Shown: positions 12,823 to 28,964 of the stretch, piece by piece
Numbering within the stretch: the first letter of the stretch is position 1
Layout of the letters: each line of letters opens with the position of its first letter
Assembly: GCA_017536405.1 (NCBI GenBank)
Contig: JAFXHL010000027.1
Coordinates: forward strand, 1-34,953
Source of the DNA: Oscillospiraceae bacterium
Lineage (GTDB): Bacteria > Bacillota > Clostridia > Oscillospirales > Ruminococcaceae
Reading direction: 5' to 3'
Length of the DNA stretch: 34,953 nucleotides
The notes under the pieces: model-generated
The model's input: only the letters and a program-made list of their open reading frames with translations
What the model was told of the DNA's origin: nothing
Database searches by the model: none
Translations under genes and position numbers: made by a program

Positions 12823-12852
12823 AACGGCATCGGATTTCTGATGCCGTTTTTT
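12823..12852 (+). terminator. Terminator of the RGG-tailed membrane protein gene
   Basis: AACGGCATC (12823-12831) pairs with GATGCCGTT (12840-12848) around an 8-nt loop, followed by a T run. Confidence 0.9.
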
Positions 12853-12960
12853 GTTCTCCGCGACCACGCGTGAAAACTCAGAAACAATGGTTGTTATTTC
12901 CGAGTTCTTTTTGTTATCCTCAACAAAGTCCGTAACGATATGTTCTCCGCGACCACGCGG
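12852..12960. repeat. Intergenic direct repeat with internal hairpin
   Basis: The 19-mer TGTTCTCCGCGACCACGCG occurs exactly at 12852-12870 and 12941-12959. In the second copy CCGCG-ACCA-CGCGG forms a perfect hairpin (12947-12960). Just before it, TCCGTAACGATATGT (12929-12943) repeats the element at 3656-3670. No gene is seen here. Confidence 0.7.
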
Positions 12961-12968
12961 TAAAGCAG

Positions 12969-13016
12969 AAAGATTGTGCTTTATGCCAGGCAAACGAGCG
13001 AGCGGTGAGCCACCGC
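12969..13016. repeat. Partial copy of the 33-nt intergenic repeat
   Basis: Positions 12969-13001 match 13046-13078 at 32 of 33 bases (for example AGATTGTGCTTTATGC then GGCAAACGAGCGA). The copy is then followed by hairpin GCGGTG-AGC-CACCGC (13002-13016) instead of the rest of the palindrome seen in the second copy. Confidence 0.7.
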
Positions 13017-13036
13017 AGGCGTATACTCCACATTCA

Positions 13037-13140
13037 ATAAAACAAAAAGATTGTGCTTTATGCTAGGCAAACGAGCGAAGGAATATGCGGATATTCCGAG
13101 CGAGTTTAACGACGCAGAAAGTGCAAGATTTTTGTTTTAT
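13037..13140. repeat. 104-bp imperfect palindrome, MITE-like
   Basis: The ends ATAAAACAAAAA (from 13037) and TTTTTGTTTTAT (to 13140) are inverted repeats, and inner segments (ATTGTGCTTT / AAAGTGCAAG; CGAGCGA / GAGCGAG) continue the symmetry. The centre is GGAATAT-GCGG-ATATTCC (13080-13097). The layout suggests a small non-autonomous element or long hairpin; no flanking target duplication was identified. Confidence 0.6.
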
Positions 13141-13171
13141 ATTAATTTTTTTTAAACTTTTGCGACAACTA

Positions 13172-13200
13172 TTGACATTTTTTCTTTATTATGATAGTAT
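13172..13200 (+). promoter_or_regulatory. Promoter of the polyamine operon leader
   Basis: TTGACA (13172-13177), 17-bp spacer, TAGTAT (13195-13200). Transcription would start about 13205-13208, at the base of the first hairpin of the leader. Confidence 0.75.
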
Positions 13201-13204
13201 GAGT

Positions 13205-13485
13205 CTGTTGTAAAAAAACAACAGGACCGTCTTCTGCGATAGCAGGAGAAAAGCCCATACGGACAGGCGGGTCAGATGCCGAAGCGATGATTTCATCGCA
13301 TTATTGATTGGGTTAAAAGCCCAAATTTTATAAGATGATAACTTTATAATCAGAAAGTCACTTGTGAAACGGTCAATAAGGTATAATCGGCAGTAGTGTC
13401 CGAAAGAAAAATACAGCCATAAGGGGCTGTTATTTCGCGTTATTGACAGCAGGTTGCTTTTATGACAACCTGCTTTTTTATTTTT
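13205..13485 (+). promoter_or_regulatory. Structured ~280-nt leader/attenuator of the polyamine operon, class not recognised
   Basis: From the promoter to the terminator no coding frame is evident, but pairing is dense. There is a 5' hairpin CTGTTGT/ACAACAG (13205-13224). Closing stem GACCGT/ACGGTC (13225-13230 with 13369-13374) encloses CTTCTGC-GATA-GCAGGAG (13231-13248), GCGATG/CATCGC (13284-13299) and TTGGG/CCCAA (13308-13324). A second stem, GTCAATAA/TTATTGAC (13372-13379 with 13440-13447), encloses ACAGCC/GGCTGT (13413-13430). The two large stems share bases 13372-13374, so they compete in part. The leader ends in a terminator 21 bp before the first gene. I looked for T-box, lysine, cobalamin, guanidine (ykkC), SAM and c-di-GMP consensus elements and found none. 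It is therefore a candidate riboswitch or other attenuator; a free-standing small RNA is the alternative. Confidence 0.6.
13448..13485 (+). terminator. Leader terminator upstream of the arginine decarboxylase gene
   Basis: AGCAGGTTG (13448-13456) pairs with CAACCTGCT (13466-13474), then TTTTTTATTTTT. An alternative pairing of GCTGT (13426-13430) with ACAGC (13446-13450) would sequester the start of the 5' arm, a plausible antiterminator. Confidence 0.85.
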
Positions 13486-13506
13486 CTCGGATTGGAAAGA
13501 TGCAGA

Positions 13507-14961
13507 ATGAATATTGAAAATCAGAAATCAGCCCCCGTTTATGAGGCACTTGAAAGACTAAGAAGACAGAGAATTGTTCCCTTTGATGTTCCGGGACACA
13601 AAAGAGGAAGAGGAAATCCCGAACTCGTTAAACTTTTGGGCGAACAGTGCGTTGGGATTGACGTAAACTCAATGAAACCGCTTGACAACTTATGTCATCC
13701 CGTTTCTGTAATCTATCAGGCAGAACAACTCGCAGCCGATGCTTTCGGTGCTGCGCACGCATTCTTTATGGTAAGCGGAACAACATCATCCGTTCAGACG
13801 ATGATTCTTGCTACCTGTAAGGCAAAGGATAAGATTATCCTTCCCCGAAATGTTCATAAGAGTGTTCTTAACGCTCTCGTTCTCTGCGGTGCTGAGCCTG
13901 TTTATGTAAACCCCGATGTTGACGAAAGAATAGGTATTGCTCTCGGTATGAACATTGACAGACTGAGAGAAACTATTGAAAAAAATCCCGATGCCGTTGC
14001 GGTTTTTGTCAATAACCCTACATATTACGGAATATGCTCTGATATGAAGGCGATTGTCGAACTCGCACACAGCCACGGAATGCAGGTTCTTGTTGACGAA
14101 GCACACGGGACTCATCTTTATTTCCACGAAAACCTGCCTATGTCCGCTATGGAAGCGGGCGCTGATATGGCAGCGGTTTCGATGCACAAATCAGGCGGAA
14201 GTCTGACGCAGAGTTCAATGCTTCTTGTAAACGAAAACATCAACATAAGATATGTTGAACAGATTATAAATCTTACACAGACAACAAGTGCATCTTATCT
14301 TCTTTTATCAAGCCTTGATATTTCAAGAAGAAACCTTGCTTTGAGAGGAAGAGAGTCTTTTGAAAAAGTAGCATCTCTCGCTGAATACGCAAGAGATGAA
14401 ATAAATTCCATAGGCGGATATTACGCCTACGGAAAAGACCTTGTAAACGGAACAAGTGTTTATGACTATGACGTTACAAAACTTTCTGTATATACAAGGG
14501 ATATAGGTCTTACAGGTATTGAAATCTATGACCTTTTACGTGATGAATACGATATTCAGATTGAATTCGGCGATATAGGAAACATCCTCGCATATATCTC
14601 GATAGGCGACAGAATTCAGGAAATCGAACGCCTTGTGGGTGCGCTCGAAGACATAAAGCGTCTTTATTCAAAGGAAGTAACACACATCCACAATTCAGAA
14701 TATATTTCACCCATAGTTGCGGCAACTCCACAGAAGGCATTCTATTCTGAAAAGAAACAGCTTCCCATTAAGGAAACAGCAGGAAAAATCTGTGGGGAAT
14801 TTGTTATGTGTTACCCTCCCGGAATACCTATTCTCGCACCCGGCGAAATGATTACAAATGAACTTACAGATTATATGCTTTTCGCAAAGGAAAAGGGATG
14901 CTCCATTCAGGGCCCCGAAGACTGCGAACTTAAAACTCTCAACGTTTTGAAGGAGGGCTAA
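13507..14961 (+). CDS. speA: Arginine decarboxylase, Orn/Lys/Arg decarboxylase family
   Basis: A 484-residue PLP enzyme of the aminotransferase-fold Orn/Lys/Arg decarboxylase family, short form without the N-terminal wing domain. Visible features: PFDVPGHKRGRGN near the N-terminus, FMVSGTTSSVQTMIL, VLVDEAHGTHLYFH (cofactor aspartate) and SMHKSGGSLTQSS with the Schiff-base lysine at about residue 228. The C-terminal domain ends in CYPPGIPILAPGE. The ATG at 13507 is chosen since GGAAAG lies 7 nt upstream; an in-frame ATG at 13462 falls inside the terminator loop. Arginine is the likely substrate because agmatine deiminase and carbamoylputrescine amidase lie in the same operon; lysine or ornithine cannot be excluded by sequence alone. 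Confidence 0.9.
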   Translation: MNIENQKSAPVYEALERLRRQRIVPFDVPGHKRGRGNPELVKLLGEQCVGIDVNSMKPLDNLCHPVSVIYQAEQLAADAFGAAHAFFMVSGTTSSVQTMILATCKAKDKIILPRNVHKSVLNALVLCGAEPVYVNPDVDERIGIALGMNIDRLRETIEKNPDAVAVFVNNPTYYGICSDMKAIVELAHSHGMQVLVDEAHGTHLYFHENLPMSAMEAGADMAAVSMHKSGGSLTQSSMLLVNENINIRYVEQIINLTQTTSASYLLLSSLDISRRNLALRGRESFEKVASLAEYARDEINSIGGYYAYGKDLVNGTSVYDYDVTKLSVYTRDIGLTGIEIYDLLRDEYDIQIEFGDIGNILAYISIGDRIQEIERLVGALEDIKRLYSKEVTHIHNSEYISPIVAATPQKAFYSEKKQLPIKETAGKICGEFVMCYPPGIPILAPGEMITNELTDYMLFAKEKGCSIQGPEDCELKTLNVLKEG

Positions 14962-14964
14962 ATT

Positions 14965-15825
14965 TTGGATTTCTGGTTTTCTGAAATGCATACAAATAAT
15001 GTCAAGATGTCGATAAGAGTTGAAAAACAGCTTTTCAGCGGAACAAGCGATTTTCAGAGAATTGACATTTTTGACTCTGTCGAATTCGGAAGATTCTTAA
15101 CCTCAGACGGTAGCGTTATCTTTTCCGAAAAAGACGAATTCACATATGACGAAACGATAGTACATGTTCCGATGGCGGTTCACCCCTCGGTTAAAAAAGT
15201 TCTCGTAATAGGCGGTGGTGACGGTGGCGTTGCGAGAGAACTTTCATACTACGACGAAATCGAAGAAATCGATGTTGTTGAACCCGATGAACTTTTCGTA
15301 AATGTATGTCGTGAATTTTTCCCCGATAACGCAAAAGGTCTTGACGACCCACGTGTAAATATTTTTTACAGAGACGGGCTTCGTTTTCTCCGCGGAAAAC
15401 AGGATCAGTATGACCTTATCATCAACGACTCGACAGACCCCTTGGGCTATACCGCAGGTCTTTTCACAAAAGAATTCTACGGAAGCTGTTATAAAGCACT
15501 CAAGGAAGACGGCATAATGGTTTATCAGCACGGAAGTCCTTTCTTTGATGTCGATGAAGAAAGTTGCAGAACGATGCACAGAAAAGCATTCAGAAGTTTC
15601 CCGATAAGCAGGGTTTATCAGGCACATATTCCTACCTGCCCTTCAGGATACTGGCTTTTCGGATTTGCATCTAAAAAATATCATCCTCTTCGTGATTTCG
15701 ACCCTGTCCGTTGGGAAAAACGCGGTCTTAAAACATGGTATTATTCAGCAAATCTTCACAGAGGTGCATTTATGCTTCCTAAATATGTTGAAGATTTACT
15801 CATAGAAGAAGAAAAGAAAAACTGA
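14965..15825 (+). CDS. speE: Spermidine synthase homologue with altered motifs
   Basis: A 286-residue aminopropyltransferase-fold protein. Full-length family features are present: VLVIGGGDGGVARELSYY, LDDPRVNIFYRDG, NDSTDPLGY, LFTKEFYGSCYKALKEDGIMVYQ and AHIPTCPSGYW. It starts at TTG 14965, which has an ideal AGGAGGG site (14951-14957) 7 nt upstream and aligns with the family N-terminus. Several usually invariant positions differ. EFxYHE is EFTYDET (His to Asp), the GPA/GPG after DxTDP is GYTAG, and VEID is VEPD. The catalytic aspartate of DSTDP remains. No speD (AdoMet decarboxylase) is in the operon, which also carries the rival carboxyspermidine route. The enzyme may therefore use another donor or acceptor; classical spermidine synthase is the default. 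Confidence 0.85.
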   Translation: MDFWFSEMHTNNVKMSIRVEKQLFSGTSDFQRIDIFDSVEFGRFLTSDGSVIFSEKDEFTYDETIVHVPMAVHPSVKKVLVIGGGDGGVARELSYYDEIEEIDVVEPDELFVNVCREFFPDNAKGLDDPRVNIFYRDGLRFLRGKQDQYDLIINDSTDPLGYTAGLFTKEFYGSCYKALKEDGIMVYQHGSPFFDVDEESCRTMHRKAFRSFPISRVYQAHIPTCPSGYWLFGFASKKYHPLRDFDPVRWEKRGLKTWYYSANLHRGAFMLPKYVEDLLIEEEKKN

Positions 15826-15846: not shown

Positions 15847-17100
15847 ATGAAATTACTTGTTATCGGTTGTGGCGGAGTTGCTACAGTTGCTATTCACAAA
15901 TGTTGTCAGAACCCTCTTTTTACAGATATCTGCATAGCAAGCAGAACAAAGTCAAAGTGTGATGCTCTGGTTGAAATTCTCAAAGACAAGACATCAGCAA
16001 AACTCTCGACAGCAACAGTTGACGCTGACAGCTTTGATTCACTCGTTGCACTTATGAAAGAAGTTAAGCCCCACACAGTTTTAAATGTTGCACTTCCTTA
16101 TCAGGACCTTACTATTATGGATGCTTGTCTGGAATGTAACGCAAACTATGTTGACACAGCAAACTATGAAGCAGAAGATACAGATGACCCCGAGTGGAGA
16201 GCAATCTATGAAAAGAGATGCAAGGAAAAGGGATTTACTGCATACTTCGATTATTCATGGCAGTGGGCTTATATGGATAAGTTCAAGGAAAAGGGCCTCA
16301 CAGCACTTTTAGGCACAGGCTTTGACCCAGGCGTTACAAGTGTTTTCTCTGCTTATGCTCTTAAACACTACTTTGATGAAATTCATTATATTGATATCTT
16401 GGACTGCAACGGCGGTGACCACGGTTATCCCTTTGCAACAAACTTCAACCCCGAAATCAATCTTCGTGAAGTTTCAGCAAACGGCTCATACTGGGAAAAC
16501 GGCAAATGGGTTGAAACAAAGCCTATGGAAATCAAGAGAGAATATAATTTCGAAGGCGTTGGTATGAAGGATATGTATCTTCTTCACCACGAAGAAATCG
16601 AATCTCTCGCAAAGAATATCCCAGGGGTAAAGAGAATTCGTTTCTTCATGACATTCGGTCAGAGTTATCTTATGCATATGAACTGCTTACAGAATGTAGG
16701 TATGCTCTCTACTACTCCCGTTATGTTTGAAGGAAGAGAAATCGTTCCTATAAAGTTCCTTAAAGCACTTCTCCCCGACCCTGCATCATTAGGACCTCGT
16801 ACAGTCGGCAAGACAAATATCGGCTGTATCTTCAAGGGAATCAAAGACGGCAAGGAAAAGACAATCTACATCTACAATGTCTGCGACCATCAGGAATGTT
16901 ATAAAGAAACAGGCGCACAGGCGGTTTCATATACAACAGGAGTTCCCGCTATGATAGGAACAGCTATGGTTATGAGCGGAACATGGAACAAAGCAGGCGT
17001 TTATAATGTCGAAGAATTCGATCCCGATCCTTATATGGATATGCTGGGTAAATATGGTCTTCCCTGGGTTGTTGACGAAAATCCCGTTACGGTTGAATAA
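15847..17100 (+). CDS. Carboxy(nor)spermidine dehydrogenase, saccharopine dehydrogenase family
   Basis: A 417-residue NAD(P)-dependent enzyme. The N-terminus is a Rossmann fold (LLVIGCGGVATVAIHKC), followed by NVALPYQDLTIMDACLE and NYVDTANYE, typical of the LYS1-like branch. GTGFDPGVTSVFSAYALKHY and LDCNGGDHGYPFATNFNPEI are signatures of carboxynorspermidine/carboxyspermidine dehydrogenases. With the next gene product it would condense putrescine with aspartate semialdehyde and reduce the Schiff base to carboxyspermidine. An AAAGGAG ribosome site precedes the ATG. Saccharopine dehydrogenase proper is unlikely given the neighbours. Confidence 0.9.
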   Translation: MKLLVIGCGGVATVAIHKCCQNPLFTDICIASRTKSKCDALVEILKDKTSAKLSTATVDADSFDSLVALMKEVKPHTVLNVALPYQDLTIMDACLECNANYVDTANYEAEDTDDPEWRAIYEKRCKEKGFTAYFDYSWQWAYMDKFKEKGLTALLGTGFDPGVTSVFSAYALKHYFDEIHYIDILDCNGGDHGYPFATNFNPEINLREVSANGSYWENGKWVETKPMEIKREYNFEGVGMKDMYLLHHEEIESLAKNIPGVKRIRFFMTFGQSYLMHMNCLQNVGMLSTTPVMFEGREIVPIKFLKALLPDPASLGPRTVGKTNIGCIFKGIKDGKEKTIYIYNVCDHQECYKETGAQAVSYTTGVPAMIGTAMVMSGTWNKAGVYNVEEFDPDPYMDMLGKYGLPWVVDENPVTVE

Positions 17101-17103
17101 GTT

Positions 17104-18249
17104 ATGGAAAAGAAAATTCTTGATATATTAAAAAGTGCACCCACCCCCGCGTATGTAATCGACGAAAAGAAGATAAGAGAAAATCTCTCTATTCTTAAAA
17201 GTGTCGAAGAAAAATCGGGTGCTAAGATACTACTTGCGCAGAAGGCTTTTTCAGCCTTCTCGCTTTATCCTACGATCGCTGAATATGTAAGCGGAACAGC
17301 TTGTAGTGGTCTTTATGAAGCTAAGCTCGGCTTTGAAAATATGGGCAAAGAGAACCATGTTTTTTCCGCTGCTTACAGAGAAGATGAAATGGACGAAATA
17401 ATTTCTTATTGCGGACATATCATCTTAAATTCAAAAAATCAGCTTTATAAATACAGAGATAAAATTCTTTCTGCGGGAAAGAAGATAGGTCTCAGAATAA
17501 ACCCCGAATGTTCAACGCAGGAAGGTCACGAAATCTATGACCCCTGTTCTCCTAAATCAAGACTCGGAATAACACTTAAAAACTTCGCTGAAATCGACCT
17601 TACAGGCGTTTCGGGAATACATTTTCATACCCTTTGCGAACAGAATTCCGACGACCTTGAAAAAACTCTTTCGGCTATCGAAGAAAAGTTCGGAAAATAT
17701 CTTTATGATATGGAGTGGATAAATTTCGGTGGCGGTCATCATATAACAAGAGATGATTACGACATTGAAAAACTCCTCTTATGCATAAAGAGAGTAAAAG
17801 AAAAATACAATCTCGAAGTGTTTATAGAACCCGGTGAGGCGTTTGCTTTAAACGCAGGTTATCTTGTAACAACCGTTCTCGATATAACAGAAAACGATAT
17901 GCCCATAGCAATTCTTGACACATCGGCTGCTTGTCATATGCCCGATGTTCTCGAAATGCCCTATCGCCCTCCCCTTTATATGTCGGGTGAAAACGGCGAG
18001 AAAAAATATTCATATCGTTTGGGTTCACAGACCTGCCTCGCAGGAGATGTTATCGGCGAATACAGTTTTGATGAGCCTCTTAATATAGGCGACAAGCTCA
18101 TCTTTATGGATATGGCAATCTATTCTATGGTAAAGAATAATACCTTCAACGGAATGCCTTTACCCGATATTGCGATACTTCGTGAAAACGGAGAATATGA
18201 AATTATAAAGCGTTTTTCATATAATGACTTCAAGGAGCGTTTATCTTGA
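17104..18249 (+). CDS. nspC: Carboxy(nor)spermidine decarboxylase
   Basis: A 381-residue fold-III PLP decarboxylase (alanine racemase-like barrel). The Schiff-base lysine is in LAQKAFSAF, about residue 47. Other family motifs are SGIHFHTLCEQ, WINFGGGHHIT, IEPGEAFALNAGYLV and GSQTCLAGDVIGEY, which holds the substrate-site cysteine and aspartate. It removes the carboxyl group of carboxyspermidine to give spermidine. The start is 3 bp after the dehydrogenase stop with little ribosome site, so it likely depends on translational coupling. Its stop overlaps the TTG of the next gene. Confidence 0.92.
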   Translation: MEKKILDILKSAPTPAYVIDEKKIRENLSILKSVEEKSGAKILLAQKAFSAFSLYPTIAEYVSGTACSGLYEAKLGFENMGKENHVFSAAYREDEMDEIISYCGHIILNSKNQLYKYRDKILSAGKKIGLRINPECSTQEGHEIYDPCSPKSRLGITLKNFAEIDLTGVSGIHFHTLCEQNSDDLEKTLSAIEEKFGKYLYDMEWINFGGGHHITRDDYDIEKLLLCIKRVKEKYNLEVFIEPGEAFALNAGYLVTTVLDITENDMPIAILDTSAACHMPDVLEMPYRPPLYMSGENGEKKYSYRLGSQTCLAGDVIGEYSFDEPLNIGDKLIFMDMAIYSMVKNNTFNGMPLPDIAILRENGEYEIIKRFSYNDFKERLS

Positions 18250-19364
18250 TTAAAATAAGTTCACTCCCTAAAAACGACGGCTTTTATATGCCCGCCGAAT
18301 ATTCAAAGCATGACGGCACAATTCTTATCTTTCCCGAAAGAAAAGGCTCATGGCCACACAATGCCGTTCCTGCTGTAAAGACATTTACTGAAATTATAAA
18401 TGCCATTTCAGAAGATGAAAAGGTTTTTCTTATAGTCAGCGATAACACCGAAGAAAAGGCGAAAGAAATATTTTCAGAAAATAATAATGTCATCATAACA
18501 AAAATCCCTCAGGATGATGCCTGGGCAAGAGATACTGCGCCGACATTCGTTACCGACGGAAAAAGTGTACGCGGTATAAACTGGCGTTTTAATGCCTGGG
18601 GCGGAGATTTTGACGGTCTTTATAAAGACTATGATAAAGATGACAGACTTGCCGTTTCTTTTATGGATTCTATCGACTGTGATTATTATGATGCATCGCC
18701 TTTTGTTTTGGAAGGCGGCTCGATTCATTCTGACGGCGAAGGAACAATTATGACAACCGAAAGCTGTCTTTTAAGCGCGGGAAGAAACCCTGACCTTTCA
18801 AAAGAAGAAATTACAGAAACATTATGTAAATATCTCGGCGGAGAAAAGGTTTTATGGCTTCCCCGCGGAATTTACAACGATGAAACAAATGAACATGTTG
18901 ACAATGTCTGCGCTTTTATAGGTCCTGCCGAGGTAGTTCTCGCCTGGACAGATGACGAAACCGACCCTCAGTATCCTCTTTCAAAGGCTTGTTATGACTA
19001 TCTTTCATCAGAAACCGACGCTAAGGGAAGAAAAATAACAATCCACAAACTTCCCATTCCGAAAACACCCGTATGCGTTTCAGAAGAAGATATGGAAGGC
19101 TATGTTTTCGAAGAAGGCGAAGATGTAAGAGATGTGGGCGAACGCCTTGCGGCATCTTATGTCAATTTCTATTTTTCAAATAATTCAGTAATTCTCCCGC
19201 AGTTTTCGGGTGAAAACGAAGAAAGCGACAGACTTGCTGTTTCTATAATGGAAAAAGTATGCAAGGGAAGAAAAATCGTTCCCATAAAGGCAAGAAATAT
19301 CATTGTCGGTGGTGGAAATATCCACTGTATCACTCAGCAGATACCGAAAGGAGCGTTGAAATAA
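18246..19364 (+). CDS. aguA: Agmatine deiminase
   Basis: A 372-residue guanidino-group-modifying enzyme that hydrolyses agmatine to N-carbamoylputrescine and ammonia. Family motifs: FYMPAEYSKHDGTILIFPER near the N-terminus, DDAWARDTAPTF, NWRFNAWGG, VLEGGSIHSDGEG, and the catalytic cysteine in GGGNIHCITQQ at residue 361. The start is a TTG (18246) overlapping the nspC stop as TTGA. AAGGAG (18232-18237) lies 8 nt upstream and there is no alternative start in the right place. Its length is normal for the family. Confidence 0.95.
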   Translation: MIKISSLPKNDGFYMPAEYSKHDGTILIFPERKGSWPHNAVPAVKTFTEIINAISEDEKVFLIVSDNTEEKAKEIFSENNNVIITKIPQDDAWARDTAPTFVTDGKSVRGINWRFNAWGGDFDGLYKDYDKDDRLAVSFMDSIDCDYYDASPFVLEGGSIHSDGEGTIMTTESCLLSAGRNPDLSKEEITETLCKYLGGEKVLWLPRGIYNDETNEHVDNVCAFIGPAEVVLAWTDDETDPQYPLSKACYDYLSSETDAKGRKITIHKLPIPKTPVCVSEEDMEGYVFEEGEDVRDVGERLAASYVNFYFSNNSVILPQFSGENEESDRLAVSIMEKVCKGRKIVPIKARNIIVGGGNIHCITQQIPKGALK

Positions 19365-20243
19365 ATGCGTAAAGTTACCGTTGCGGCAATTCAGATGAAT
19401 AACAGTAGAATTGTCAGTGAAAACATAGCAAAAGCCGAAAAACTCGTAAGAGAAGCGGCAGAAAAGGGTGCACAGATAATTCTTCTGCCCGAACTTTTTG
19501 AAAGACAGTATTTCTGTCAGGAAAGAAGATATGACTACTATGATTTTGCAAAGAAAACCGAAGAAAATGATGCGGTAATCCATTTCAGAAAAATCTGTAA
19601 GGAGCTTTCTGTTGTAATGCCCATAAGTTTTTATGAAAAAGACGGCAATACACTTTTCAACTCTGTTGCAGTAATCGACGCCGATGGAGAAATTCTCGGC
19701 GTTTACAGAAAAACACACATCCCCGATGACCACTATTATCAGGAAAAATTCTATTTCACATCCGGCAATACAGGTTTTAAGGTATGGGATACAAGATACG
19801 GAAAAATCGGCGTAGGAATCTGCTGGGACCAGTGGTTTCCCGAAACAGCAAGAGCGATGGCACTTATGGGTGCTGAACTTATCTTCTACCCTACCGCAAT
19901 AGGCTCTGAACCCATCCTTGAAAGCGACAGTATGCCTCATTGGAGAAGGGCTATGCAGGGACATTCGGCGGCTAATATCGTTCCCGTTATTGCGGCTAAC
20001 AGATACGGAAAAGAAGATGTTACCGCAACAGAAGAAAACGGCGGACAGAATTCATCGCTTATCTTCTATGGTTCATCATTCATAACCGATGAAACAGGCG
20101 GAATTCTTTCTTCTGCCGAAAGAGAGGGCGACGCAGTCCTCACAGAAACCTTCGACCTTGACGATATAAGGGAAAAACAGCTTTCATGGGGAATTTACCG
20201 TGACAGACGCCCCGAAACATATAAGATAATTACCGAAAGATAA
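19365..20243 (+). CDS. aguB: N-carbamoylputrescine amidase
   Basis: A 292-residue nitrilase-superfamily amidohydrolase that converts N-carbamoylputrescine to putrescine, CO2 and ammonia. The catalytic triad is visible as Glu43 in LLPELFERQYF, Lys116 in YRKTHIPDDHYYQEKFYF and Cys153 in VGICWDQWFPETARAMAL. The ATG directly abuts the aguA stop, and AAAGGAG lies inside the end of aguA. It is the last gene of the operon. Together with ADC, AguA and the two carboxyspermidine enzymes it closes the arginine-to-spermidine route. Confidence 0.95.
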   Translation: MRKVTVAAIQMNNSRIVSENIAKAEKLVREAAEKGAQIILLPELFERQYFCQERRYDYYDFAKKTEENDAVIHFRKICKELSVVMPISFYEKDGNTLFNSVAVIDADGEILGVYRKTHIPDDHYYQEKFYFTSGNTGFKVWDTRYGKIGVGICWDQWFPETARAMALMGAELIFYPTAIGSEPILESDSMPHWRRAMQGHSAANIVPVIAANRYGKEDVTATEENGGQNSSLIFYGSSFITDETGGILSSAEREGDAVLTETFDLDDIREKQLSWGIYRDRRPETYKIITER

Positions 20244-20421: not shown

Positions 20422-21513
20422 ATGAAAAAGATAATTATCATAGCATTGTCTTTTGTTCTTGCACTTATAATCGGAATTTTCGTTATCAATGTAAGCGAAA
20501 AGGAAACCGATGTTACCGAAGAGACAACGAGAGTGGGGCTTATTCTCAATGGCCCCAGAAACGACGGAAGCTGGAGTCAGTCTCATTATGAAGCACTCTG
20601 CGCTACCGCTAAAGAAATAAATTTACAGATAATCTGCAAAGAAAATATCTCCGCAGAAAATGCGCCCGATGTTATAAGAGAACTTGTTATGAGCGATTGC
20701 AAGGTAATCGTTGCAAACTCTGCTATTTTCGGTGATGCTGTAACATATGCCGCAAAGGCATATCCCGAAATATATTTCTTTCACGCATCAGGCACTAATT
20801 TCGATAAGAATTTATGCACATATTTCGGAAGAATGTATCAGATACGCTATCTCACAGGGATAGTCGCAGGGCTTACAACAAAAACAAACGAAATAGGTTA
20901 TGTTGCCGCTATGCCCGTTTCTGAAGTAAACAGAGGTCTTAACGCATTTACCTTAGGAGTAAGAAAAGTAAATCCCGAAGCAAAAGTTTATGTCCGCTGG
21001 ACAGATTCATGGAGCGATAATGAGGCTGCCGCAAAAGCATCAGAACAACTGATAAAAGAACATAACATAGATATTCTCGCTATGCATACAGACTCTCTGG
21101 AGCCTTTACGTGTCGCTGATGAAAATAATATTTACAGCATAGGTTATAACCTTGAGAACAAAGAAAAATTTCCCGATAGTTATCTTACCGCGGCTGTATG
21201 GGACTGGAAACAGTTCTATACCCCACAGATACTCAGATGTCTTCAGGGAAAATTCGAGGGAAAGAATCATTGGGCAGGTCTTGAAACGGGAATGATAAAT
21301 ATCGCCGATATTTCTCCTATGATAAATCCGAAAGCGAAAGAAAAGGCTATGGAAGAATACGAAAAAATGAAGAACGGAACATTTGATGTTTTCTATGGTC
21401 CTGTTTATGATAATGAAGGAAATTTGCGTATAGCAGAGGGCGAAAGTATGACCGATAATGCTATGCTCAATGATTTTGACTGGTATGTCGAGGGGGTATA
21501 TGTTGATGAATAA
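20422..21513 (+). CDS. BMP-family (PnrA/Med-like) ligand-binding protein 1
   Basis: A 363-residue extracytoplasmic protein of the basic membrane protein family, periplasmic-binding type 1 fold, which in known cases binds nucleosides. After an N-terminal membrane segment (~4-24) without a lipobox cysteine come [59 protein letters not shown] and LTAAVWDWKQFY, all family hallmarks. Absence of a lipobox suggests a signal anchor. No ABC permease or ATPase is adjacent; instead a paralogue and a hybrid sensor kinase follow with overlaps. A sensory rather than transport role is therefore inferred. The ribosome site is weak (AAAGAAAGAAG). Confidence 0.88.
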   Translation: MKKIIIIALSFVLALIIGIFVINVSEKETDVTEETTRVGLILNGPRNDGSWSQSHYEALCATAKEINLQIICKENISAENAPDVIRELVMSDCKVIVANSAIFGDAVTYAAKAYPEIYFFHASGTNFDKNLCTYFGRMYQIRYLTGIVAGLTTKTNEIGYVAAMPVSEVNRGLNAFTLGVRKVNPEAKVYVRWTDSWSDNEAAAKASEQLIKEHNIDILAMHTDSLEPLRVADENNIYSIGYNLENKEKFPDSYLTAAVWDWKQFYTPQILRCLQGKFEGKNHWAGLETGMINIADISPMINPKAKEKAMEEYEKMKNGTFDVFYGPVYDNEGNLRIAEGESMTDNAMLNDFDWYVEGVYVDE

Positions 21514-22603
21514 ATCAAAAAGAATTCTTATAATATCGGCGGTTGCGGTTTTTCTGCTTGTAATCTCCGTTATTATAGTTTCGGGAAAGGATATATTCCC
21601 CGATAAAAAACATACAATAGGTCTTATTCTTACAAGCACAAAAGACGACAACGGCTGGAACAGTATGCACTATGAAGGCGTTTTTTCCGCCTGTAAACAG
21701 CTTGACGCAAAACTCATTGTAAAGGAAAATATCCCCGAAGGCACGGGCGACTGTGAAAAGGCGATAGAAGAACTTATCGATGACGGCGCTGAAATGATTA
21801 TCCTTTCAAGCTATTCATATCCTTTAGAGGCAAAGGAAATCATCGACAGACATCCGACAATATCATTCTACGGAATTTCATCCGAATACACCTCAGACAA
21901 TATGACATCTTATTTCGGAAGAATGTATCAGGCGAGATACCTCTCGGGGATTGTTGCAGGAATGACAACAGAAACAAACGAAATAGGCTATGTTGCAGCT
22001 ATGCCCAATAATGAGGTAAACAGAGGAATAAACGCTTTTACTTTAGGCGTTAAGAGTGTCAACCCCGATGCGAAAGTTTATGTTGAATGGACAGATTCAT
22101 GGGACGACGCAGAAAAAGAAAAGGAAGCAGTAAACAAAATCCTTTCAGAAACAAAGGCGGATATTCTGACATATCATCAGAATCAGCATAATGTCGCTGA
22201 AATCGCCGATTCTATGGGTATATGTTCGATAGGCTACAATAAAGCTATCGAAGGATTATCAGAAAAATATCTTACTGCTGCCGTATGGAACTGGGAATCG
22301 CTCTATTATCAGATTATAAGAGAATTTATGCTTGGAAAAGCAAACTCTGTTGACCATCACTGGTATGGCATAACAGACAGCGAGGTTATCGGATTATCTG
22401 AATATTCCCCTCTCGTTTCTTCGGAAACAAAAACAGCGGTTGAAAATGCAAAGTCAAAATTTACTTACGGAAACTACATCTTCTCGGGCGAAATCTATGA
22501 CAACGAAGGAAATTTGAGATGCGAAGAAGGCGAAATGATAAGCGATGATGTTCTTCTCGCAAGAATGGACTGGTATGTTGACGGGGTGGTGGTTTCAGAG
22601 TGA
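21506..22603 (+). CDS. BMP-family (PnrA/Med-like) ligand-binding protein 2
   Basis: A 365-residue paralogue of the preceding gene, clearly a tandem duplicate. [58 protein letters not shown] and [13 protein letters not shown] align throughout. The N-terminus is a membrane anchor (~6-26) without a lipobox. The ATG at 21506 is chosen because AGGGGG (21491-21496) is 9 nt upstream. It overlaps the previous gene by 8 nt and the kinase by 4 nt, so all three are translationally coupled. Residues at the presumed ligand site differ from paralogue 1 (for example MHTDSLEP versus YHQNQHNV), hinting at different ligands or a heteromeric sensor. Confidence 0.88.
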
Positions 22604-25116
22604 AAAAAGCCATAACGAAACAGGTCGTTGTCAGAACAGCAACCCTCATTTTAGGCGGGCTTGCGGTTTTAGGAATCATCTGTATAATCATGTGGTTCAA
22701 ACTGCGTGAGATAACAACCAGCCAGGTTGAAAGCCATGTTTCAGGATATGGCGCTATGGCGGCGCAGATAATAGACAATCATCTCAACGACGAAATAGCC
22801 TCTCTTGAAATGATGACCTCTGTAATCAATAAAAAAACAGGAATACCCGATTATGATTTTGAAAATGAATATGGCATTTCCTATGGTGTTATGAAGATTA
22901 CGGGTGAAGCGACATATGGGCAACAGATTGACTTTTCTGAATCAGATGCATTTTTTGAAGCGCTCCACGGAAATCCTTCGGTAAGTTCTGATTCAGAAAA
23001 AACTCTTTTTGCCGTTCCTGTCTATAACAACGGAAATGTAAAATTTGTTTTCTATAAACTCTGTGATAACGATGTTCTCGCGGAACATGTAGACCTTGTC
23101 TGCTATGGCGGAATAGGCGAATGTATGCTCATAGACATCGACGGAAACATAGTATTCCGTTCACAGAATGCAAAGGATAAAAAAGAACTCTCTTTCTATA
23201 CATCTGAAGAAAAGACAGAAACTATGGAAGGCATAAGAGAAACTATGAATGTAAATATTTCTGCGGCAAAATTCTGTCCTTATGATGAAACGGTTATTTT
23301 CGCTTCAGAAACAAACTATCCTAACCTCTATCTCATAGGATATGTTCCCTACGCAGCACCTGCGGGTGATATAAAACTCATCGTTCCCCTTGTTTTATGG
23401 ACATTCGGTCTTTTATGGGTTCTTATCGTTATAGTTTTCGTTTATCTTATGAGTGCAGAACAGAAAGTTCAGCAGAGCGAAGAACTCAGACAGGCAAAAA
23501 TTTCTGCCGAAAAGGCAAACAGAGCAAAGAGTGATTTTCTTGCAAATATGTCACACGAAATAAGAACTCCTATAAATGCCGTTATCGGTATGAATGAGAT
23601 GATTTTAAGAGAGTCAAAGGAGGGCAATATAAGAGAATACGCAACAAATATCGATGCCGCCAGCCACAATCTCTTAGGAATCATAAATGATATATTAGAC
23701 TTTTCAAAGATTGAATCGGGTAAAGTTGATATCGACCTTCAGGATTATAAACTCAGTTCACTTTTAAGGGATATGACAAATATGATAAGCCTTAAAGCAG
23801 AACAGAAAAATCTTGTTTTCAATGTAAATGTAAATGAAAACACTCCCGATTTGCTTTATGGCGACGACCTCAAAATCAAGCAGATTATTTTAAATCTTCT
23901 TACAAATGCTGTGAAATACACTCACAAAGGAAGCGTGACGCTTGATGTAGGTTTCAGCAAATCAGAAAACGATGATGAAATAATGCTTGATATCGCGGTT
24001 TCTGATACAGGTATCGGCATAAAGGAAGAAGAGATGTCATCGCTTTTTGAAAACTTCAGCCGTTTTGATATATCTGCAAACAGAAATATCGAAGGAACAG
24101 GCTTAGGGCTTGCGATAACATATAACCTTGTAAGAATTATGGGCGGTGAAATAGCCGCTGAAAGTGAATACGGAAAAGGCTCTGTATTTAAAATTTCCGT
24201 TCCGCAGAAAGTAACGGGCGAAGATGTTATCGGCACTGAATGGGATAAGATTTCCGAATCCGAAACTCCTGTTTTAAAATCAGAATTCATAACACCCGAT
24301 GCGTCAATCCTTATTGTTGACGACAACAAGATGAACCTTATGGTTGCTAAAAATCTTCTTAAACATACAAAGGCTAAAATAACTACCTGTATGAGTGGTG
24401 AAGAAACGATAGAACTTGTCAAGGAAAATAAATTCGACATCATTCTTCTCGACCATATGATGCCTCATATGGATGGTATCGAAACTCTTAAAATCCTTAA
24501 ATCAATGGATGGCAACAAGAGTTCCGCTGCCGCTGTCATAGCACTTACAGCGAACGCTGTTTCGGGCGTTAAGGATATGTATATCGCAGAAGGTTTTGAC
24601 GACTACATAAGCAAGCCTGTAACAGGAAGTATGCTTGAAGAAAAAATGATAAAATTCCTTTCTGAAGAAAAAATCATCTATACAGAAAATAAGGACAGCG
24701 AAGAAAAAGCTTCTGAAACAAAGAATAATGATGTTTCAGAAAGCAGTAATATTTCTCCTGTCTTTGATTCAGATATCGGCAAGACATATCTTGGCAACGA
24801 TGATGAACTCTATGCAGAAATACTCGGTATGTTCTGTGAAATGCATGGCGAAAAATCAGAAGAACTCGAAAAGTTTGTTTCCGAAGAAAACTGGGCGCAG
24901 TATACCGTTTCTGTCCATGCGCTGAAATCAAATGCTCTTAATATAGGCGGAAAGAAACTTTCGGAACTTTGCCTGAAACTTGAAAAAGCAGGAAAGAAAA
25001 TCAAGGCAGGCGAAGAAATAAAGGAAAATATTTCTTTCATAAAGAAAAATCATTCCGATATGATAAGCCTTTTCAGAGAAACAGTAAACCTCGCAGAAGA
25101 ATATCTAAGAAAATAA
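22600..25116 (+). CDS. Hybrid sensor histidine kinase with receiver and Hpt domains
   Basis: An 838-residue membrane kinase. Order: membrane segment ~12-34, extracytoplasmic sensor ~35-255 (Cache-like, [15 protein letters not shown]), membrane segment ~258-283, and a coiled linker. The HisKA domain follows with phospho-His319 in [14 protein letters not shown]. The HATPase has [18 protein letters not shown] and [10 protein letters not shown]. The receiver has DDNKMN and phospho-Asp618 in [11 protein letters not shown]. The Hpt domain has His773 in [13 protein letters not shown]. The start is GTG 22600, overlapping the previous stop as GTGA. The phosphorelay ends at the Hpt domain and no DNA-binding response regulator is present, so its output partner is encoded elsewhere. 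The two preceding BMP proteins are likely co-sensors. Confidence 0.93.
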
Positions 25117-26768: not shown

Positions 26769-28964
26769 TTAGTCCTCAATCTGTTTTCCTAAAAATTGCG
26801 CTGCCGCCTGAACGAGACTGAGATGAATATCCGTTGCTGTCGAATCGGGGCTTGGCGCTAAAAAAGCGACCGCACCCGTAACATCGCCCGATGTTAAAAT
26901 CGGTGCGCAGGCTATTGCGGAACGGTCTATCCCCTCAACAGGGAAAACCCTCTGTTCACCGCTTTTATAGATATAGGTCTTTCGCTTTTCTAATATTTCT
27001 TCAGGCCCTGCTGAAACCCTGCGTTCGTTGAATTCTCTTTTCTGAACGCCTGAAACTGCAATAACATGGTCTCTGTCAAACACAACAACGGGGCAGGATG
27101 CGAGTTTTGTTATGACGTCAGCCACAGCCACAGCATTCCCCGACATTTCACCTATCGCAGAATATTTCTTGAAGATGACTTCCCCGTCGGCACTTGTGTA
27201 AATTTCAAGCGGGTCACCGCCACTGATAACATTGACAGTATAAGCCTTTGCAGGACGGTTTTTCGGCCTGCATATATAGCGTGTTTCAAATGAGTTACCT
27301 ATACTGCCAAACTGAAAATTTACGGTTTCCTCTCTTTCGGGCAAAGTCCCCGTTTTTAAAAGTGTGTCAATATCGGATTTCAGTTTTATCTCGATATTCT
27401 TGTTTTCATAGACATCTATTCTTTCTATTATAAGAGAGATATCCGACTTTTCAAGTCTGTCTTTTTTAAGAATATCATCGAAAACATCAAAGACAGTTTT
27501 AGACATTCTTGCGATTTCAACTATCGAACTTCTTTTTCTGATATTTTCCTTTATCTGATTTTTGCAACCGTTTATTCTGTTTATAGCGTCTTCTTCGAGT
27601 TCTCTGTATGTTTCCTCGATAAGTTCTTCGTTATCGGGATTTTTCATAAGTTCACGGATTTTCTGCTTTTCGATCGCTTTCAGTTCTTCTTTCGCACTGT
27701 TAAGTTGCTTTTCAAGGATTTTTATTATGTTGTCGCTTTCTTTAACAGTCTGTTCCTCGCCCGAAACTGTATTCTGAAGTTTATCAATCATATCTTCACA
27801 GTTGTTTTTGACAAGCCTGATATAATCCTTTACAACAGCGTCAAGAAAATCAAGGGTTGTGTTGTGTGCCGTGCAGGCATTTAGTCCCCTCTTGTGATAA
27901 GAACCACAGATATATGACGGAGTGAGTTTTATTGAACTTCTGCTGAACATCGGTTCACCACAGTCCCCACAGAATAACTTACCCGTGTATGGAGTGGGAT
28001 ATTTTTTAACCCCTCTGTAAGAGGTTGTTGTTCTTTCCTTGAGTTGTTCCTGTGTGTCAAGAAAAAGTCTGTCATCGATTATCGCTTCGTGGTGCTTTTC
28101 GATAACTATATGGTCGCTTTCATCAACCTTTGTGTCTTTTCCCTTGATAGTTCTTCGGGTGTATTTGTGTCCCCTGAATGTTCCTATATAATAATCGTTG
28201 CGAAGTATTCCCTGAACGGTTATGATGCTCCATTCATTCTTTACCTTGCGCTTGTATTCCTTTTCGGATTCTTCGGCGCGTTCTCTTTCTTTCGCCCTTG
28301 GGGTAGGTATATTCTTTTCGGTAAGATAATTTGCTATCTTCTTATATCCCCAGCCCTCAACGGAATAGAGCCTGAAAATTTCTTTTACAACCTCTGCCTC
28401 GTCGGGAACAATTTCGATTATGTTCTTCTTCTGATTTTTTATGATATATCCATAAGGAACAGCACAAAGCCATTCCCCCGCTTTCTGTTTCATATCAATA
28501 ACACTGCGGACTTTCTTGCTTGTTTCGGTAACGGGCATTTCATTGAAAAGAAAACGGATCGCAATGTTTGTCCACTCATCATTTGTGGGATAATCAATGC
28601 CATCCATAATGCTTATAATGCGTATTCCCTTATCTCTCATCTTTTCAAGTTCGTTAAGACCCAAACTTGTTCTTCTCGAAAAACGGGAGAAATCCTTTAC
28701 AACAAGAATTCTTGATTTTCCTTCAAGGAGATTTTTTCTGAGAGTCATATAGTTCTCACGCTCTTCAAAGGTATAACCCGATTTATCTCTGTCAACATAT
28801 TCTTTAACGGTGCATCTCGGAAAATGCTGTTTTACATAAGAATTGATAATCTTGAGCTGATTTTCGATAGAGGTGTTTGAATCGCTTTCTCTCTCGGTGT
28901 CAACCGAAATTCTCGCATAGACGGATATTTCTTCCGTAAGTTGTGAATCAGCTAACTTTACCAT
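26769..28964 (-). CDS. Large serine recombinase fused to the C-terminal part of SpoVT
   Basis: A 731-residue chimera. Residues ~12-160 are a serine-recombinase catalytic domain: nucleophile Ser20 in YARIS, and VKDFSRFSRR. ~185-300 is a recombinase DNA-binding domain. ~325-365 is a zinc ribbon (CGDCGEPM, then two more cysteines). ~395-460 is a coiled coil. Typical recombinase sequence ends near 560-575. From residue 582 (GGDPLEIYTSADGEVIFKKY) to the end are 150 residues of SpoVT, a sporulation transcription factor: the second half of its AbrB-type DNA-binding domain, then the whole GAF-like domain (VVVFDRDHVIAVSG, PILTSGDVTGAV, AAAQFLGKQIED). About 30 N-terminal SpoVT residues are missing. The start has AAAGGGGA upstream and a strong promoter. 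The best explanation is an element integrated inside spoVT; a stable fusion protein is the alternative. Confidence 0.88.
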   Translation of the reverse strand: MVKLADSQLTEEISVYARISVDTERESDSNTSIENQLKIINSYVKQHFPRCTVKEYVDRDKSGYTFEERENYMTLRKNLLEGKSRILVVKDFSRFSRRTSLGLNELEKMRDKGIRIISIMDGIDYPTNDEWTNIAIRFLFNEMPVTETSKKVRSVIDMKQKAGEWLCAVPYGYIIKNQKKNIIEIVPDEAEVVKEIFRLYSVEGWGYKKIANYLTEKNIPTPRAKERERAEESEKEYKRKVKNEWSIITVQGILRNDYYIGTFRGHKYTRRTIKGKDTKVDESDHIVIEKHHEAIIDDRLFLDTQEQLKERTTTSYRGVKKYPTPYTGKLFCGDCGEPMFSRSSIKLTPSYICGSYHKRGLNACTAHNTTLDFLDAVVKDYIRLVKNNCEDMIDKLQNTVSGEEQTVKESDNIIKILEKQLNSAKEELKAIEKQKIRELMKNPDNEELIEETYRELEEDAINRINGCKNQIKENIRKRSSIVEIARMSKTVFDVFDDILKKDRLEKSDISLIIERIDVYENKNIEIKLKSDIDTLLKTGTLPEREETVNFQFGSIGNSFETRYICRPKNRPAKAYTVNVISGGDPLEIYTSADGEVIFKKYSAIGEMSGNAVAVADVITKLASCPVVVFDRDHVIAVSGVQKREFNERRVSAGPEEILEKRKTYIYKSGEQRVFPVEGIDRSAIACAPILTSGDVTGAVAFLAPSPDSTATDIHLSLVQAAAQFLGKQIED
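27205..27245. other. Recombinase/spoVT junction, candidate attachment site
   Basis: On the minus strand the coding sequence changes from recombinase-type to SpoVT-type around GTTATCAGTGGCGGTGACCC (27211-27230). SpoVT homology begins at GGC GGT GAC (from 27221). The crossover core of the putative element should lie at or just before this point. The partner site with the spoVT 5' end is not in the window. Confidence 0.55.

Follow-up and report, generated by a model that had tools for sequence, protein, structure and literature searches.

A probable polyamine riboswitch leader upstream of a polyamine operon in an Oscillospiraceae bacterium and its relatives in Bacillota

Analysis of a 34,953-nucleotide stretch of DNA from an Oscillospiraceae bacterium (contig JAFXHL010000027.1, hereafter the window) indicated that the RNA upstream of its polyamine operon is a probable polyamine riboswitch leader. 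As read from the sequence, its anatomy is that of a transcriptional OFF riboswitch. We consider it likely that the leader acts in cis, terminating transcription on binding spermidine or a close polyamine and thereby controlling polyamine synthesis and uptake. An earlier note on this DNA had proposed a transcription-attenuating polyamine leader, and this proposal is strongly supported by a covarying RNA, by the placement of that RNA before polyamine genes and by the complementarity of terminator and antiterminator strands. The identity of the ligand, the direction of switching and independence from a helper protein are what we infer from these observations. All features of the leader and the operon described below are on the plus strand.

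The leader of about 280 nt lies between a promoter and the first gene of the operon. The promoter, judged good in the earlier note, proved to be of the sigma-70 type (TTGACA-17-TAGTAT, 13172-13200), with an extended -10 element (TG) and 10 of 12 consensus matches, and transcription would start near 13207. Reading by eye of the region 5' of the promoter (12850-13090) showed the direct repeats TCTCCGCGACCACGCG and AAGATTGTGCTTTATGC-AGGCAAACGAGCGA, each present twice. The strong structure suspected for the leader was confirmed by folding, as the RNA 13204-13484 folds at -92.3 kcal/mol (z -6.8), a value equalled by none of 200 shuffled sequences. An intrinsic terminator was found where it had been expected, between the leader RNA and the first polyamine gene; it consists of the hairpin AGCAGGTTGC/ACAACCTGCT (-14.0 kcal/mol) and a U tract (13448-13479). 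With respect to leader-peptide attenuation, the open reading frames in the leader are only 6-24 codons long.

The operon has the order speA-speE-casdh-nspC-aguA-aguB. It begins with a speA-type Orn/Lys/Arg decarboxylase gene (13507-14961, Pfam OKR_DC_1) with ATG at 13507 and, as read by eye, the ribosome-binding site GGAAAG at 13494-13499. This gene is followed by speE for spermidine synthase (14965-15825; TIGR00417 and NF002010 above cutoff), casdh for carboxynorspermidine/carboxyspermidine dehydrogenase (15847-17100; Pfam saccharopine dehydrogenase, with NF043000 as best match at 409.7 bits, under its cutoff of 800), nspC for carboxynorspermidine decarboxylase (17104-18249; TIGR01047 above cutoff), aguA for agmatine deiminase (18246-19364; TIGR03380 above cutoff) and aguB for N-carbamoylputrescine amidase (19365-20243; TIGR03381 above cutoff). 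A search of the bacterium's own genome gave no match to E. coli-type speD (TIGR03331), the only speD type searched, and no potA above cutoff; hence the operon may be the main source of spermidine in this genome. The presence of speE (14965-15825) in a genome with no match to E. coli-type speD raises the question of the source of decarboxylated SAM or of another role for SpeE. Immediately 3' of the operon (20422-25116) lies a tandem pair of PnrA/BMP-type binding proteins, and after it comes a hybrid histidine kinase that carries receiver and Hpt domains. On the minus strand at 26769-28964, a single open reading frame combines a large serine recombinase (Resolvase, Recombinase and zinc ribbon) with a SpoVT C-terminal domain, and its sequence looks as though an integrase had inserted into the front part of a spoVT gene or taken its place.

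The earlier note had treated the leader as unassigned and had seen in it no consensus of a known class. At the level of Rfam this does not hold, since a scan with the Rfam covariance models matched RF02440 to the 5' third of the element (13224-13282) with 50.8 bits (E 2e-6) against a gathering score of 37.2, covering the model in full (1-54). RF02440 is a 54-nt family named SpF59_sRNA, 'Streptococcus sRNA SpF59 (ldcC RNA)', and is filed as an sRNA. It was the only family at gathering score in the window, and in this respect the absence of other known classes stood. T-box, guanidine (ykkC) and cobalamin families gave zero matches in the window and none at E<=1 in the leader; SAM families gave no match at E<=1 within 13100-13520. 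The lysine riboswitch (12.3 against 30 bits) and RF02449 ncr1015 (29.5 against 60 bits) were below their gathering scores in the leader. Of 197 genomes in the window's family, 49 carry a match to RF02440, and at these loci conservation extends far beyond the 54 nt of Rfam. The pneumococcal RNA known as F59, srn235, SN20 or Spd_sr49 corresponds to the 5' third of the leader RNA. It is described as a sRNA gene of 54 nt, whereas the conserved element has about three times that length and is placed as a leader before polyamine genes. The Bacillus RNA ncr1015 aligns weakly with the 3' half of the leader and its terminator; it was rejected as the same RNA, since in genomes that also carry the leader RNA (e.g. 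G531 and G788) it occupies other genomic sites.

The conserved, aptamer-like domain spans 13222-13383, the sole match in the window (113.8 bits, E 1.2e-29) of a covariance model, R1, with 167 positions and 48 pairs. Stem P2 (13225-13273) pairs GACC (13225-13228) with GGTC (13270-13273) and encloses P3 (13230-13237/13242-13249) and P3b (GCC 13253-13255/GGC 13266-13268); double changes were found in this part of the structure. A possible pseudoknot, CGG 13260-13262 with CCG 13279-13281 (13260-13281), is invariant in 75 of 75 sequences and hence has no covariation support either way. Hairpin P4 (GCGATG/CATCGC, 13284-13299) shows double changes in all six of its pairs. Stem P5 (13301-13379), formed by TTATTGAT (13301-13308) and GTCAATAA (13372-13379), encloses P6 (13309-13314/13318-13323), P7 (13330-13334/13361-13365) and P8 (13337-13351). 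Among aligned relatives the highly conserved segments are GACC, GGCCAUACGGACAGCCGGGUC, UGCCGA, UUAUUGAUUG, UUUUAUAAGUUGG and ACUUGUGAAA-GGUCAAUAA. The minimum free energy fold of the window's RNA lacks P2, P3b and P5 and so differs from this comparative structure.

Comparative analysis of the relatives revealed double changes in 38 of the 48 pairs, against a shuffle mean of 18.2, in an alignment (A2) of 100 loci picked from those fetched with weight on divergent ones, which leans toward the structure because it was made with model R1. A second alignment (A1) was made with MAFFT and not fitted to a structure. Its input was 149 loci, from which nine too short were dropped; 132 were left after removal of near-duplicates, 19 of these had no recognised 3' end, and from the remaining 113 (104 non-redundant) we chose 75. 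In A1, 93.7% of the cells pair, against at most 46.5% for slid partners, and 24 of 51 pairs show double changes, with none of 500 shuffles as good. A structure-free covariation scan placed the pair flanking GACC/GGGUC on top. Pairs belonging to P3, P4 and P6 came next, while P8 and a single pair of P5 ranked lower; some of the top pairs of the scan are non-complementary and look like clade signal. RNAalifold alone recovered P3 to P7 and paired the P2 and P3b strands differently. The stem GACCGT/ACGGTC that the earlier note had drawn was not supported by these comparisons: GACC pairs with GGGTC as P2, and the pair needed to continue the drawn stem beyond GACC/GGTC can form in just 27 of the 75 sequences.

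The copy in the window is divergent, with a short P7 and no P9. In many relatives the 5' and 3' ends can be closed by the stem AGAGUC..AGCA/UGCU..GACUCU, which over 107 leaders has a mean energy of -10.7 kcal/mol, against -6.9 for shuffled sequences; a local hairpin at -7.7 is a candidate competitor. The 3' GACUCU half present in most relatives was not seen in the window. P3b is GCC/GGC instead of GGC/GCC in the window and in a group with genomes of 1.8-2.3 Mb (f126/g342), probably Streptococcus; some members of this group have AACC/GGUU in place of GACC/GGUC in P2. Model alignment also revealed reduced forms of the RNA, one (L169) lacking the P2-P3b domain and three (L104, L109 and L168) lacking the P7/P8 part; L169 is still upstream of speA and L168 of casdh. 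In L021, the P8 hairpin is apparently doubled in the alignment.

The RNA is the leader of the genes of one pathway. Among 145 distinct loci, the first recognised gene is a polyamine gene in 131 (speD 46, speA 44, casdh 21 and potA 20), and the remaining 14 have less than 600 nt downstream, too short to tell. At two loci, an unrelated or unrecognised open reading frame of 132 or 310 amino acids is ahead of the polyamine gene. Names of gene clusters were checked on representatives with NCBIfam and Pfam. Among 398 genomes sampled from the phylum, model R1 found the RNA in 20, the own genome included, and all 20 loci are upstream of casdh, speD or speA. A class sample that was centred on G531 and also comprised 398 genomes gave hits in 37; the locus sets overlap, as with L153 and L055. 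Another 37 loci from these searches comprise 24 upstream of casdh, 12 upstream of speA and one exception, L200, where a transposase-like open reading frame directly follows the leader terminator at the place of speA in relatives. The RNA is present in four of six genomes of the window's genus, with one copy in its own genome. A pattern scan of named genomes gave at least 118 stretches; among the matches listed are Lachnospiraceae, Oscillospiraceae, Paenibacillus, Bacillus, Neobacillus, Acidaminococcus and Phascolarctobacterium, as well as single Synergistaceae and Spirochaetes metagenome-assembled genomes, either of which may reflect a binning error.

Analysis of the region between RNA and gene covered 128 distinct leaders, after 14 loci with no gene in reach, four repeats and three loci with no landmark were dropped. 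A terminator of at least -7 kcal/mol was found in 117 of these and not in the other 11. The pattern CARGY, complementary to the conserved ACUUGU that forms the 3' strand of P7, occurs in the 5' arm of the terminator (with 6 nt upstream) in 96 of the 117 leaders, against 7.8 expected from shuffling. The mean pairing energy between the ACUUGU region and the terminator arm in these 117 leaders is -7.2 kcal/mol, against -3.7 for shuffled sequences; only 62 reach p 0.05 individually, and the best-pairing positions are scattered over the P6-P7 region and beyond. The base after ACUUGU varies with its partner, which is C in 3 and U in 10 leaders beside A, and C in 52 and U in 20 beside G (Fisher p 0.0012, a value that is optimistic because the sequences are related). 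The partner base was obtained in 115 of 117 leaders; 85 of these have C or U and entered the Fisher test, whereas the 30 with A or G (26 beside G and four beside A) were omitted.

In the window, the putative switching strands are ACTTGT (13360-13365) and GTCAATAA (13372-13379), together spanning 13360-13379, and their candidate antiterminator partners, considered in the window and its genus mates, are GCAGGT (13449-13454) and TTATTGAC (13440-13447). Complementarity that makes the expression platform exclusive with the aptamer is seen class-wide and is weak in the window alone. Here the ACUUGU strand pairs over 6 bp at -5.5 kcal/mol (shuffle p 0.24), and adding GUCAAUAA/UUAUUGAC gives a composite of 8+6 bp with p 0.15 against shuffles (0.017 for the P5 half alone). 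This composite is kept in all four genus loci. The pairing of GTCAATAA with TTATTGAC, which the earlier note had also drawn, can indeed form and is likewise kept in these four loci, shortened in L172. The GCTGT/ACAGC antiterminator suggested there is not kept in that genus mate, as read by eye.

On these observations, the aptamer would be the 5' domain of about 160 nt, made of P2, P3, P3b with the possible pseudoknot, P4, and P5 enclosing P6, P7 and P8. At low levels of spermidine or a close polyamine, ACUUGU, which forms the 3' strand of P7, would base-pair with the terminator's 5' arm and allow read-through; in the window's genus, the 3' strand of P5 (GUCAAUAA) would also pair with bases just before the terminator arm. 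Bound spermidine would hold P5 and P7 in the aptamer, the terminator would form and the operon would be off. An OFF switch is expected because the terminator would be free to form once the aptamer retains P7 and P5. Spermidine can be made through either speD/speE or casdh/nspC, and it is taken up by PotABCD. Spermidine is the leading candidate ligand and appears the most economical one, as it is shared by the two synthesis routes and by import. Arginine and agmatine, also suggested earlier as ligands, are poor candidates, given that in many members the only genes downstream are casdh-nspC or potABCD. Polyamines bind RNA generally, and selectivity is therefore the weak point of the spermidine reading.

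A riboswitch for another molecule of the pathway (putrescine, cadaverine, carboxyspermidine, agmatine, decarboxylated SAM or MTA) is unlikely, though it deserves to be weighed. Every controlled gene also touches precursors, and putrescine or cadaverine is of relevance to the speA-type genes and to potABCD; however, casdh-nspC and speD members have only spermidine as common product, and casdh-nspC loci offer no role for agmatine, decarboxylated SAM or MTA. We regard as improbable an attenuator in which a polyamine-sensing regulatory protein binds the conserved RNA. Covariation does not separate a protein site from a small-molecule pocket, but the size of the conserved part (about 160 nt) and its many invariant bases in loops and junctions speak against this alternative.

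We take SP0916 to head the same polyamine operon in pneumococcus. Pneumococcal sRNA tables place F59 between SP0915 and SP0916 (PMC3395615, PMC12323649, PMC4387999), in PMC4387999 under Lung. This short Streptococcus pneumoniae transcript, tabled as an sRNA, speaks for an independent trans-acting sRNA, as RF02440 is filed. Such an sRNA is nevertheless very improbable, since at every testable locus the RNA precedes polyamine genes and has their orientation, with the exception of one locus where a transposase-like open reading frame is between, and a terminated leader is in itself a short transcript. The main text of a pneumococcal 3'-end study (PMC6296669) does not mention the F59 RNA. No description of the leader class was found in the open-licence papers that were searched. 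To judge by the Rfam label 'ldcC RNA', the link to the gene seems to have been noticed by others before, and priority for the class is uncertain.

The spermidine riboswitch that is a SAM-I variant (PMC10853860) resembles the leader, if the ligand proposed here is right, in switching off by transcription termination before polyamine genes. It differs in its four-stem SAM-I architecture, whereas the leader has another structure with no SAM match; its authors describe that class, the only polyamine-sensing one met in the papers searched, as narrow in distribution and expect further ones, while the leader RNA is widespread in the Bacillota samples. The speF, odc1 and potE motifs and the Pasteurellaceae potABCD leader are likewise candidate leaders of polyamine genes, reported from other taxa (PMC11477304, PMC8632094, PMC2965389); they are set apart here by these reports and by Rfam scores rather than by structural comparison.

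Taken broadly, though with slightly less assurance than for the window's leader, we favour a widespread class of spermidine (polyamine) riboswitches, structurally unrelated to the SAM-I variant, that would govern polyamine homeostasis across Bacillota (Clostridia, Bacilli probably including streptococci, and Negativicutes) and of which the 5' third is catalogued as a pneumococcal sRNA. The existence of dedicated polyamine-sensing riboswitches has been disputed. With a common class whose aptamer is defined, whose genes are clear and whose switching strands are visible, the question of polyamine sensing would become directly testable and, if the reading is true, the pneumococcal sRNA F59 would be the terminated leader of the polyamine operon.
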